The notes under the pieces: model-generated
What the model was told of the DNA's origin: nothing
Databases searched by the model: none
The model's input: only the letters and a program-made list of their open reading frames with translations
Shown here: positions 6,247-64,000 of the stretch, in pieces
How positions within the stretch are numbered: position 1 is the first letter of the stretch
Layout of the letters: the number at the start of each line of letters is the position of its first letter
Position numbers and translations under genes: made by a program
Assembly (NCBI GenBank): GCA_902540995.1
Contig: CACBOY010000001.1
Span: 62,001 to 126,000 of the forward strand
From: an uncultured SAR86 cluster bacterium
GTDB lineage: Bacteria; Pseudomonadota; Gammaproteobacteria; Magnimaribacterales; AG-339-G14
Direction: 5' to 3'
Length of the DNA: 64,000 nt

Positions 6247-7124
6247 AGTTTTTATTTGAAAATCTTATAGGTATAACTTCTATCACTATTTTGGTACTGA
6301 ACACAGTCATCTTGTCATGTTTGTTGATACCCTTGGGAATAATTAAATTTTTCTTACCAATCACTTCACTAAAAGTGTTATTTACAAAATTTATTATAAA
6401 GGTAGGTGAATTATGGATTTTCACCAATAAAATTTGGGTAAAGGCTTTACACAATCCCAAATGGCAAATAATTGGTAAAGAAAATATCAAGTCCGATGGC
6501 TGGACAATAGCTACTTCAAATCATCAATCATTTGCGGACATATTTCTTCTGCAGGATATCACCAATAGAAAAATGCCCATGCTTAAATTCTTTATGAAAT
6601 ATGTTCTGATTTACGTTCCAATTATAGGTCTTTCTTGGTGGGCTTTAGATATGCCTTTTTTGAAGAGGTATACAAAAAAGGAACTAGAAAAAAATCCCAA
6701 GCTGGCTGGAAAAGACGTGAGAGAAATGAAAAGAGCTTTGAAACATTACGCCCTTTATCCTGTAACTGTTTTTAGTTTTGCTGAAGGAACAAGATTTACT
6801 CTTAAAAAACATCATAATCAAAATAGTCCTTTCGAAAATCTTTTGAGGCCTAAAGAAGGAGGCTTGGCTACAGCGTTAAGTTTAGTGAATAAAATTGATT
6901 CTCTTATTGATTTTACAATCAAGTTTGATTCTAAAAAAAGAAGTTTTTGGGACTATCTTTGCGGAAGAATGAATTCAGCTAAAATTATTATTAAGGAAAT
7001 AAAAATCCCAAAAAAATTTCTTAATGAAAATTTATTAGACAATCATTCTCTGAGAACAGAATTCAAGGAATGGGTTAATTCATTATGGTTGGAAAAGGAC
7101 CTTTTGCTCAGTAATAGAGACTAA
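6243..7124 (+). CDS. 1-acyl-glycerol-3-phosphate acyltransferase family protein (YihG-like)
   Basis: A 293-residue membrane-associated acyltransferase. An N-terminal hydrophobic stretch (residues 8-40) precedes the catalytic NHQSFAD (93-99, the HxxxxD motif) and EGTR (181-184). The spacing and the LSWWALDMPFLKRY segment match the YihG/lysophosphatidate acyltransferase branch. It probably acylates lysophospholipid at the inner membrane. The GTG start overlaps the mazG stop by 4 nt, and prc begins 4 nt after its end. Confidence 0.87.
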   Translation: MKFLFENLIGITSITILVLNTVILSCLLIPLGIIKFFLPITSLKVLFTKFIIKVGELWIFTNKIWVKALHNPKWQIIGKENIKSDGWTIATSNHQSFADIFLLQDITNRKMPMLKFFMKYVLIYVPIIGLSWWALDMPFLKRYTKKELEKNPKLAGKDVREMKRALKHYALYPVTVFSFAEGTRFTLKKHHNQNSPFENLLRPKEGGLATALSLVNKIDSLIDFTIKFDSKKRSFWDYLCGRMNSAKIIIKEIKIPKKFLNENLLDNHSLRTEFKEWVNSLWLEKDLLLSNRD

Positions 7125-60697: not shown

Positions 60698-61018
60698 TTA
60701 GGTTTTTAATATTTTGAGAACCTCTTTTAATGATTCTATTATTTCTACTTCAAGTTCCAAAGAAAAGTCTCCTTCTTCCAAAATTTTTTTAATCGCCTTG
60801 ACATTTAAGCCTCTCTCAGAGAGTTCTTTTATTTTTAAGAAAATGACCAAGTCTGATTTTTGGAACATTCTTCTATTGGAAATTCTTTTAACAGTAAAAT
60901 AATTTTTAAAAGCTTTTTCCCAATATCTCAAAATATAGTCTTTTACGCCCAATAAGTTACTTGCCTCTCCAATAGAAAGGTATTTTTTATCAGGCAAGTT
61001 AGCAAGGTCAATTTCCAA
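60698..61018 (-). CDS. MerR family transcriptional regulator
   Basis: A 106-residue MerR-type protein. The winged helix is [27 protein letters not shown] (about 12-38), and the second block is [29 protein letters not shown]. Only a short dimerisation helix follows, with no metal-binding Cys. The family member found after ihfA in Pseudomonas and relatives has the same position and size, and its target is unknown. The stop abuts tRNA-Pro with no spacer. Confidence 0.9.
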
Positions 61019-61020
61019 TT

Positions 61021-61296
61021 TTACAAAGACTCTCTAAGTTTTTTTGAAGCTTTAAAAGAAACAACATTTCTATCCGAAATTTTATATGGTTCACCTGTTT
61101 TTGGATTTCTTCCGGGTCTACTTTTTTTATGCTTCACAACAAAATTTCCAAGCTTTGGAATTTTTACTTCTTCTCCATTTTCTAGGCATTTACTAATTTC
61201 TTCAAAATAAGTATTAACTATTTTCAAACAATCTTTTTTTGGAAGACCTAGTTGCTCCCTCAATAAATTAACAATATTCGCCTTGGTTAATGTCAT
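61021..61296 (-). CDS. ihfA: Integration host factor subunit alpha
   Basis: A 91-residue DNA-bending protein of the HU/IHF family. MTLTKANIVNLLREQLGLPKKD starts the helical body. IPKLGNFVVKHKKSRPGRNPKTGEPYKIS contains the beta-arm with the intercalating Pro in GRNPKTG. It partners with IhfB in nucleoid structure, recombination and regulation. It is directly between pheT (adjacent, no gap) and merR, the usual gammaproteobacterial order. Confidence 0.95.
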   Translation of the reverse strand: MTLTKANIVNLLREQLGLPKKDCLKIVNTYFEEISKCLENGEEVKIPKLGNFVVKHKKSRPGRNPKTGEPYKISDRNVVSFKASKKLRESL

Positions 61297-63315
61297 TTAT
61301 CTTAAAATTGCTCCAAGTTTTTTTTGCATACCAGAAATAATAAGATTAGCTTCTTTATTTATCTCTTCCTCAGATAAAGTTTTTTTACTTGATCCCCATG
61401 AGACTCTGAAGGCAATACTTTTTTTGCCATCAGAAATATTTTTGCCATCATAAACGTCAAAAATTTTTGTGCTGATCAAAAAATTTTTTGATGAAATGTG
61501 AATGCAATTCTCTATTTGTTCGAAAGAAACTTTATTATCTATTTCAAAAGAGAAGTCTCTTTGAGATATAGGATAAATTGAAGGCGCTATTAATTTTCCA
61601 AGATCATTAAGTGGTAAGGATTCAACCTTTATTTCAAAATATAAGAAAGCTTTATTGAGTCCAAGTGATTTTATAAACCTTGGATTGATGCTCCCAACAG
61701 AGCCAATAAGCTTATTTTTGAGGTAAATGTCAGCAGATGCATAAGGATGTAATAAATCATTTTGAGATTTTTTCCAGAATATTTTCTCTATTCTGAACTC
61801 TGCAAAGAAGTTTTCCAAGATTCCTTTCAAATAGTAAAAATCATAATTTTGATTTGTATTCCAATTTTTAAACTTTTCATCATCATAAATTAACCCAGCA
61901 AGATTTATCTCTTCCATATGAGTATCGTTTGAGAAGGATTTACCCATTTCAAAAATACTTAAGAAATTTTGCCCTCTATTGATATTAAATTCTAAATTTG
62001 TTGCTAGGCTGGGCAGTAAAGAAGTTCTTAAGACACTTAAAGAATTATTAAGAGGATTTTTTATAGCAATACTTTTGTTTTCTATACCCAAATTTTCTAA
62101 AACCTGTCTATCAAGAAAAGAATAGTTTATGACTTCATTAAATCCTTTGTTGGTCATAAAAGTTTTGATCTGATTGATAAAATCATAATCTGATTTTTCA
62201 TAATGCTGATTTATTGAATTGTTTTTAATTTGAGGTAAATTGTCATAACCGATAATTCTTGCAACCTCTTCAATTAAGTCTTCTTTAATTGATAAATCAA
62301 AACGATGACTAGGTACTTCGAAAGTTAAATTATTTTTATTTTTTTTCATAAATTTTATCTCAAGTCTATTCAAAATAGACTTGATTGTATTTTCTTTAAG
62401 ATCGGTTCCAAGTTTCAGATTTACGTCTTCCATGGAAATGTTTATGAGTTTTTTTCTAGGAAAATACTTATTTTTTATTGTCTCTACATTAGAAATATCT
62501 GCCTGGTAAATTTCTCTGATAATTGAGAGAGCCTCCTTTAAAGCATCCTCATGAAGATTAAAATCAACGCCTCTTTCAAATCTTTGTGAAGCATCAGTTT
62601 GAAAACCATATCTTCTAGCTTTGCCTTTAATAATACTGGGAAGAAAAAAAGCAGATTCGATCAGAAAATTTTGTGTTTTTTTAGAAACTGAATGATTTAA
62701 ACCTCCTGAAATTCCCGCAAAAGCTATAGGTTCTTTTTCATCAGCAATAACAAGGCAATCTTTAGTAAGTTTAAGATTCTTTTCACCTAAAATTTTTATT
62801 TGTTCTTTTGTTTTTGCAAATCTAACTTCAATATCTCCCTCAATTTTATCTTGATCAAAGACATGCATTGGCTGACCACTTTCTAACATGACAAAATTCA
62901 CGATATCTACTAAGGGGTGGATGGATTGAATTCCAGCCGCTTTAAGAGTCTTTTTTATATGATCCGGAAACTTCTTAATTAATTTTAAATTTGAAATAGA
63001 AACGGCTGAATAGGCTGAACATGCATCTTTAGCAAATAAATTAATTTTTTTATTAAATTTTTTTTCTCCTTTGAAAGAGCTTTTCGTTGCTGAAGAAAAT
63101 TTTTTATCTTTGTATGCACAATAATCTCTCGCCAAGCCTTTTACAGAAAAGCAATCTCCCCTGTTAGGAGTTAAGTCAAAATCAATTATCTTATCTCCTT
63201 GAAAAGACTTTATCTCGTCAACTTCTATGCCTATTAATGTAAGGTCATCGCAAAGGTTTTCTATCTTAGGTTTAGCCTTAATAGCCTTGGTAATATTTGA
63301 ATATAAAACTTTCAT
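61297..63315 (-). CDS. pheT: Phenylalanyl-tRNA synthetase beta subunit, lacking the tRNA-binding insertion domain
   Basis: A 672-residue beta subunit. E. coli PheT is 795. The N-terminal LCDDLTLIGIEVDEIKSF runs straight into KIIDFDLTPNRGDCFSVKGLARD near 45-68. In the full-length protein an OB-fold EMAP-like domain of about 110-120 residues lies between them, so that domain is absent. The B3/B4 editing domain (QPMHVFDQDKI near 150), B5 and a C-terminal anticodon-binding domain (SIYPISQRDFSFEID near 590) remain. With PheS it charges tRNA-Phe. It begins 2 nt after the pheS stop. Confidence 0.93.
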   Translation of the reverse strand: MKVLYSNITKAIKAKPKIENLCDDLTLIGIEVDEIKSFQGDKIIDFDLTPNRGDCFSVKGLARDYCAYKDKKFSSATKSSFKGEKKFNKKINLFAKDACSAYSAVSISNLKLIKKFPDHIKKTLKAAGIQSIHPLVDIVNFVMLESGQPMHVFDQDKIEGDIEVRFAKTKEQIKILGEKNLKLTKDCLVIADEKEPIAFAGISGGLNHSVSKKTQNFLIESAFFLPSIIKGKARRYGFQTDASQRFERGVDFNLHEDALKEALSIIREIYQADISNVETIKNKYFPRKKLINISMEDVNLKLGTDLKENTIKSILNRLEIKFMKKNKNNLTFEVPSHRFDLSIKEDLIEEVARIIGYDNLPQIKNNSINQHYEKSDYDFINQIKTFMTNKGFNEVINYSFLDRQVLENLGIENKSIAIKNPLNNSLSVLRTSLLPSLATNLEFNINRGQNFLSIFEMGKSFSNDTHMEEINLAGLIYDDEKFKNWNTNQNYDFYYLKGILENFFAEFRIEKIFWKKSQNDLLHPYASADIYLKNKLIGSVGSINPRFIKSLGLNKAFLYFEIKVESLPLNDLGKLIAPSIYPISQRDFSFEIDNKVSFEQIENCIHISSKNFLISTKIFDVYDGKNISDGKKSIAFRVSWGSSKKTLSEEEINKEANLIISGMQKKLGAILR

Positions 63316-63317
63316 TG

Positions 63318-64000
63318 TTATTGAGATAGAAATTTTATGTCGTTTGAAAATAGAGAGCGCATATCATCTATTTCATAAGAAAGCTTAGCCATTCTTTCAA
63401 TACCCATTCCAAAAGCAAAGCCAGAAAATTTCTTTGAATCCAATCCTGACATTTCTATTACGTTAGGATGCACTAAACCGCAGCCCATGATTTCTAGCCA
63501 ATTTTTGGACTTTTTTTCCATAATATCCACTTCAGCAGAAGGTTCTGTAAAAGGAAAATAAGAAGGTCTAAACCTAACTTTGGTATCTAGCCCAAAAAAG
63601 AAATCTATGAAGGTCATAATTTCATTTTTAAGATGGCCAAAATTAATATTTTCATCAATAACTAGACCTTCTACCTGATGAAACATAGGCGTATGAGTTT
63701 TGTCTGCATCACTTCGATAAACTTTTCCAGGACAAATAATTTTTAAGGGTGCGCCTCTTTTTTCAATGGATCTTATTTGAACAGGAGAAGTATGTGTTCT
63801 TAAAAGATTTCCGTTATCTAAATAAAAGGTGTCATGCATATCGCGAGCAGGATGGTCTTTGGGAATATTCAAAGCATCAAAATTATAATAATCGCTTTCA
63901 ATCTCAGGACCATCTTCAATCAAATATCCCTTGGAAGAAAAGAAATCTGTTATCTTTTTGGTAGTTATAGTCAAAGGATGAAGCTTCCCTTGAGATTTAA
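63318..64000 (-). CDS. pheS: Phenylalanyl-tRNA synthetase alpha subunit (5' end beyond right edge)
   Basis: The catalytic domain of Phe[57 protein letters not shown] (motif 2), [12 protein letters not shown] and the C-terminal [28 protein letters not shown] (motif 3). The frame stays open to base 64000 ([15 protein letters not shown]), so the track start at 63974 (a TTG) is not the true start. About 100 N-terminal residues lie outside. It is part of the pheST-ihfA-merR-tRNA unit. Confidence 0.95.

Follow-up and report, generated by a model that had tools for sequence, protein, structure and literature searches.

Loss of domain B2 from a SAR86 PheT

Can a bacterial phenylalanine--tRNA ligase beta subunit (PheT) dispense with its EMAP-like OB domain, B2, and how far has such a loss spread? 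The question is raised by pheT of an uncultured SAR86 cluster bacterium, located at 61297..63315 (-) of the window, the whole stretch of 64,000 nucleotides that was analysed. A sequence-only reading had described this gene as one continuous frame of 672 aa without a frameshift, and reading the ORF directly confirmed both points. Pfam and TIGR00472 identify the product as PheT, and its best sequence match among solved structures is a bacterial PheRS beta chain. The protein scored 586.2 bits against TIGR00472, the bacterial PheT equivalog (cut-off 402.65), and 106.1 bits against TIGR00471, the archaeal/eukaryotic PheRS beta model, below the cut-off of 282.65. The TIGR00472 alignment covered model positions 158-798 only, of 798. 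Pfam detected the B3/4 editing domain (aa 98-269, 62509..63024 (-), B3_4 3.1e-57), the B5 domain (aa 291-357, 62245..62445 (-), 3.2e-20), the catalytic-like module B6/B7 (aa 373-563, 61627..62199 (-), tRNA_synthFbeta 1.6e-50) and the B8 anticodon-binding domain (aa 579-672, 61300..61581 (-), FDX-ACB 5.8e-26). The same scan of the 672-aa protein found no tRNA_bind domain, and B2 was likewise absent by TIGR00472 and by alignment. This does not disqualify the protein as a bacterial PheT, because forms without B2 have been reported in bacteria, among them many CPR PheRS beta subunits (PMC5370408); B2 within B1 is usual but not universal. We consider it very probable that the protein is the single PheT of this bacterium and that it would be enzymatically functional.

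The sequence-only reading had placed the missing OB fold at the N-terminus. Its absence is borne out by Pfam and TIGR00472, but the site is different: B2 is an internal domain, normally inserted within B1, and both halves of B1 are still present and directly joined (aa 1 to about 51, 63163..63315 (-)). In an alignment with gammaproteobacterial PheTs that carry B2, B1 runs from its first half (LTLIGIEVDEIKSF) through QGDKII into its second half (DFDLTPNRGDC), at a junction where other PheTs carry about 113 extra residues. The spacer between GIEVDEIKSF and DFDLTPNRGDC is thus short, as had been noted, although QGDKII is all of it, six residues rather than about a dozen. The AlphaFold2 model of the chain has a mean pLDDT of 85.7, with values of about 80-90 at the junction, and predicts a hairpin at the usual B2 insertion point, its strands (31-38 and 41-48) linked by a turn of two residues. 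The nearest solved folds to the model were bacterial PheRS beta chains; their rmsd was high, probably because the domains of a chain modelled by itself are placed with uncertainty (pTM 0.59).

The short form is shared across the SAR86 order

A profile search found PheT matches in 99 of 121 genomes of the SAR86 order. The matches that reach the junction, from more than 90 genomes in four families, all lack B2: they begin at profile position 135-159 and none covers the domain. In family f2 there is a separate, extra PheT profile match at 1-43. All PheT relatives with 82-95% identity carry the name SAR86, and the same short PheT is present in eleven named SAR86 genomes and in the MAG MED-G81, as matches of 2010-2022 bp spanning query residues 1-672; five N-termini read among the named relatives have the short form. 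The suggestion that the domain is absent throughout the lineage therefore held for all four families, and the circumstance that would have spoken against it, retention of B2 by close relatives, was found in no junction-reaching PheT of the order. Pairwise dN/dS of pheT against nine close relatives was 0.09-0.13, and the short PheT is therefore maintained by purifying selection.

These results also bear on the possibility that the gap arose in assembly or sequencing, as an in-frame deletion confined to the contig that contains the window. The genome is an incomplete draft in 28 contigs, as an artefact might lead one to expect, but the identical junction occurs in every junction-reaching member of the order, across many independent single-cell genomes and MAGs. 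Such order-wide sharing is far beyond chance; we reject the artefact and regard its probability as virtually nil.

Two further observations were made on PheT in the order. In the SAR86 isolate AH-324-J20 (L141), pheT carries a one-base frameshift with a stop after 636 aa and the locus is one base longer, which is probably an assembly error. In families f3 and f4, four PheTs (L127, L128, L132 and L133) are very divergent: two of them are 28-29% identical to the PheT of the window, they share a branch of 1.9 changes per column in the PheT tree, and they have S at the editing-site position that matches E. coli T354.

PheS, the operon and the editing site are conserved

The partner subunit is encoded beside pheT. 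The pheS gene (63318..64000 (-)) is cut by the window end; in the genome it is full length, encoding 325 aa with the N-terminal region present. Downstream of pheT, sequence reading identified an HU/IHF-like gene of 91 aa (61021..61296 (-)) and a MerR-like regulator gene of 106 aa (60698..61018 (-)). From the translations, the gene order is infC, rplT, pheS, pheT, HU/IHF-like, MerR-like, which is the familiar gammaproteobacterial order, with the HU/IHF-like gene as the usual downstream neighbour of pheT and the MerR-like gene likewise a customary member of the operon.

The editing-site residues of E. coli PheT, which we take to be H265, E334, T354 and A356, correspond to H151, E220, T240 and A242, all kept in the B3/4 domain of the window PheT. 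Among the B2-less PheTs of the order, the equivalents of H265 and E334 are unchanged, T354 is T or S and A356 is A or S, the same range as in PheTs that carry B2. This conservation is relevant to the idea that SAR86 lost B2 on giving up PheRS editing. Editing has been given up in mitochondrial PheRS, and a 2006 paper by Roy and Ibba, going by its title, reportedly describes B2 as a dispensable RNA-binding domain that contributes to editing, a tie that would favour such a coupled loss. Against it, the order retains both B3/4 and its editing residues, and pheT is under purifying selection. Joint loss of editing and B2 is thus unsupported, and we judge it very unlikely.

B2 is also missing outside SAR86

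In a class-wide sample of 232 genomes, in which low scorers were re-searched and the mid-scoring G214, G306 and G336 were left out, most genomes have a full-length PheT among the matches listed. At least 13 gammaproteobacterial genomes outside the SAR86 order, from 11 families, lack B2 (G156, G157, G185, G190, G205, G211, G240, G247, G270, G283, G317, G344 and G346), and all 13 are 1.0-2.0 Mb in size. In 11 of them the only tRNA_bind match lies in a MetG-sized frame (in G247 it stands alone, at 115 residues); G156 has no tRNA_bind match and G270 only a CsaA-like one. The stand-alone match in G270 and in its family mate G137 was rejected as a candidate B2, since by eye it appears to be of CsaA type. 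A phylum-wide sample of 199 genomes gave no clear further B2-less case among the matches listed or re-searched. One match that begins late in the model, G355 (150-798), lies at a contig end, and the N-terminal part is on another contig.

The distribution could alternatively be read as ancestral absence, with the B2-less PheT older and B2 gained by others, or as spread of the short form by horizontal transfer. The PheT tree leaves room for this: the best tree has 8 changes in B2, of which at least 2 are forced by well-supported branches, and its deep branches are too poorly supported for losses to be counted. However, nearly all other gammaproteobacteria and Pseudomonadota sampled have a full-length PheT among the matches listed, the operon position is conserved, and within family f86 B2 is absent from G205 and present in G313. 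This pair alone argues for independent loss. Ancestral absence or transfer is given very little credence, and loss of B2 is the reading that we prefer.

B2 loss as probable trimming of an accessory domain

Compared with the bacterial PheT of TIGR00472, for which there are structures from Thermus, E. coli, Pseudomonas and Acinetobacter, the SAR86 form is alike in its other domains, their order, the operon and the editing site, and differs in lacking B2 and in having 672 instead of about 795 aa. The CPR PheRS beta subunits are likewise bacterial and without B2 (PMC5370408), but belong to a different lineage and are likened here by report rather than by sequences. Mycoplasma pneumoniae remains viable when its PheT is split after B1-B2-B1 (PMC12494982), suggesting that the N-terminal part tolerates rearrangement, although that engineered variant, unlike the SAR86 form, keeps B2 on the separate B1-B2-B1 fragment. 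The work of Roy and Ibba was reportedly also on engineered enzyme, and its title calls B2 dispensable, whereas the loss in SAR86 is natural. Archaeal and eukaryotic cytosolic PheRS beta subunits, about 590 aa in solved chains, are also shorter than the bacterial form, and they too are not known to carry B2. They differ in lacking B8 (PMC3275996) and represent another subfamily, the PheT of the window being below the TIGR00471 cut-off.

Collectively, the results point, with high probability, to a reduced genome that has lost an accessory domain of PheT while the enzyme would still charge and edit. B2 would have been precisely excised from PheT no later than in the common ancestor of the SAR86 order. 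The protein would still fold, with a short turn closing the B1 strands in the model, and with full-length PheS it would form an (alpha-beta)2 enzyme in which B8 would read the anticodon, tRNA-Phe would be charged and the B3/4 editing site would be kept. Contact with the anticodon loop is made by B8, and the tRNA is bound and charged by the coiled coil of PheS together with the catalytic module (reviewed in PMC3275996). With all of these retained, and with B2 dispensable according to the 2006 title, normal charging would be expected, possibly with weaker tRNA affinity or editing. The loss probably costs little beyond some tRNA affinity and editing efficiency, because B2 is an accessory RNA-binding module outside the catalytic and anticodon-reading machinery, and it may have been tolerated or favoured in a small-genome lineage. 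We infer that the enzyme is active, that its tRNA binding or editing may be weaker, and that streamlining may be the cause. Streamlining is plausible because the genomes of SAR86, a group with an isolate (HIMB1674), are streamlined and of small size (PMC11582366). A small genome is not in itself enough to bring about the loss: G139 and G272, of the same class and only 0.3-0.4 Mb, have PheT matches over the whole model. Without B2 the gene is shorter by only about 340 bp.

The sequence-only reading had proposed a lineage-specific streamlining; the loss is lineage-wide, but it is not specific to SAR86, having already been reported for CPR bacteria and recurring in other small-genome gammaproteobacteria. 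A literature search on SAR86 synthetases found nothing. What the SAR86 case adds is that the loss is order-wide in an abundant free-living group, that the editing site is kept and that the loss recurs elsewhere in the class. Here an enzyme that cells cannot do without carries a natural deletion, in a bacterial group that ranks among the most abundant in the ocean. Together with the other small-genome losses, this indicates that bacteria can do without B2 over long evolutionary times. SAR86 PheRS offers a natural setting in which to study the part that B2 plays in tRNA binding and editing. As an instance of enzyme trimming, the case is modest but well supported.

The remaining EMAP-like OB domain belongs to MetG

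A single tRNA_bind match was found in the source genome. It is the MetG C-terminal domain (TIGR00399, 128.5 bits, cut-off 116.65), and B2 as a separately encoded protein was rejected on this ground. No second tRNA_bind match was found in any of the 60 relatives searched, with at most one per genome. The source genome is 79% complete and by itself proves little; taken over 61 genomes, of which 29 reach 90% completeness or more, the pattern shows that B2 did not move elsewhere in the genome.

The MetG domain could nevertheless work in trans as a tRNA-binding factor of the Trbp111 kind, shared between MetRS and PheRS. The genome yielded no other EMAP-like OB domain, this one is encoded as a separate 110-aa ORF that overlaps the metG stop by 8 nt, and Trbp111-type OB domains bind tRNA 3' ends broadly (PMC11286949). 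However, family f3 lacks B2 while its OB domain remains fused to MetG, most B2-less genomes outside the order also keep the fusion, and the separate protein, a homologue of the MetG C-terminus by TIGR00399, is simply explained as a MetRS subunit. We therefore regard supply in trans as highly improbable. The broader version, in which SAR86 would have gathered all EMAP-like OB function into one domain, mostly freed from MetRS and acting in trans for several synthetases including PheRS, is improbable to the same degree. Loss of B2 without replacement remains our preferred reading.

The split of MetG was itself seen in three of the four SAR86 families, where an ORF of its own, of ~110 aa, encodes the C-terminal EMAP-like OB domain; family f3 has the fused form. 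In the source genome the stand-alone ORF lies outside the window, at L001:1489-1821 (-), in G000:C4 around the match at 6254-6535. The start of the OB ORF overlaps the metG stop in the 8-nt motif RTGGATGA in 26 of the 28 split loci read, which suggests translational coupling of a two-subunit MetRS. The family f4 locus L027 has ATGAGTGA at the junction of metG and the OB ORF, and in the family f2 locus L028 metG ends just upstream of the OB ORF. Beyond the SAR86 order, the MetG-type OB domain stands alone in G247, while in the family mate G346 it lies in a 665-aa frame (L104, L102), apparently a second split of MetG.
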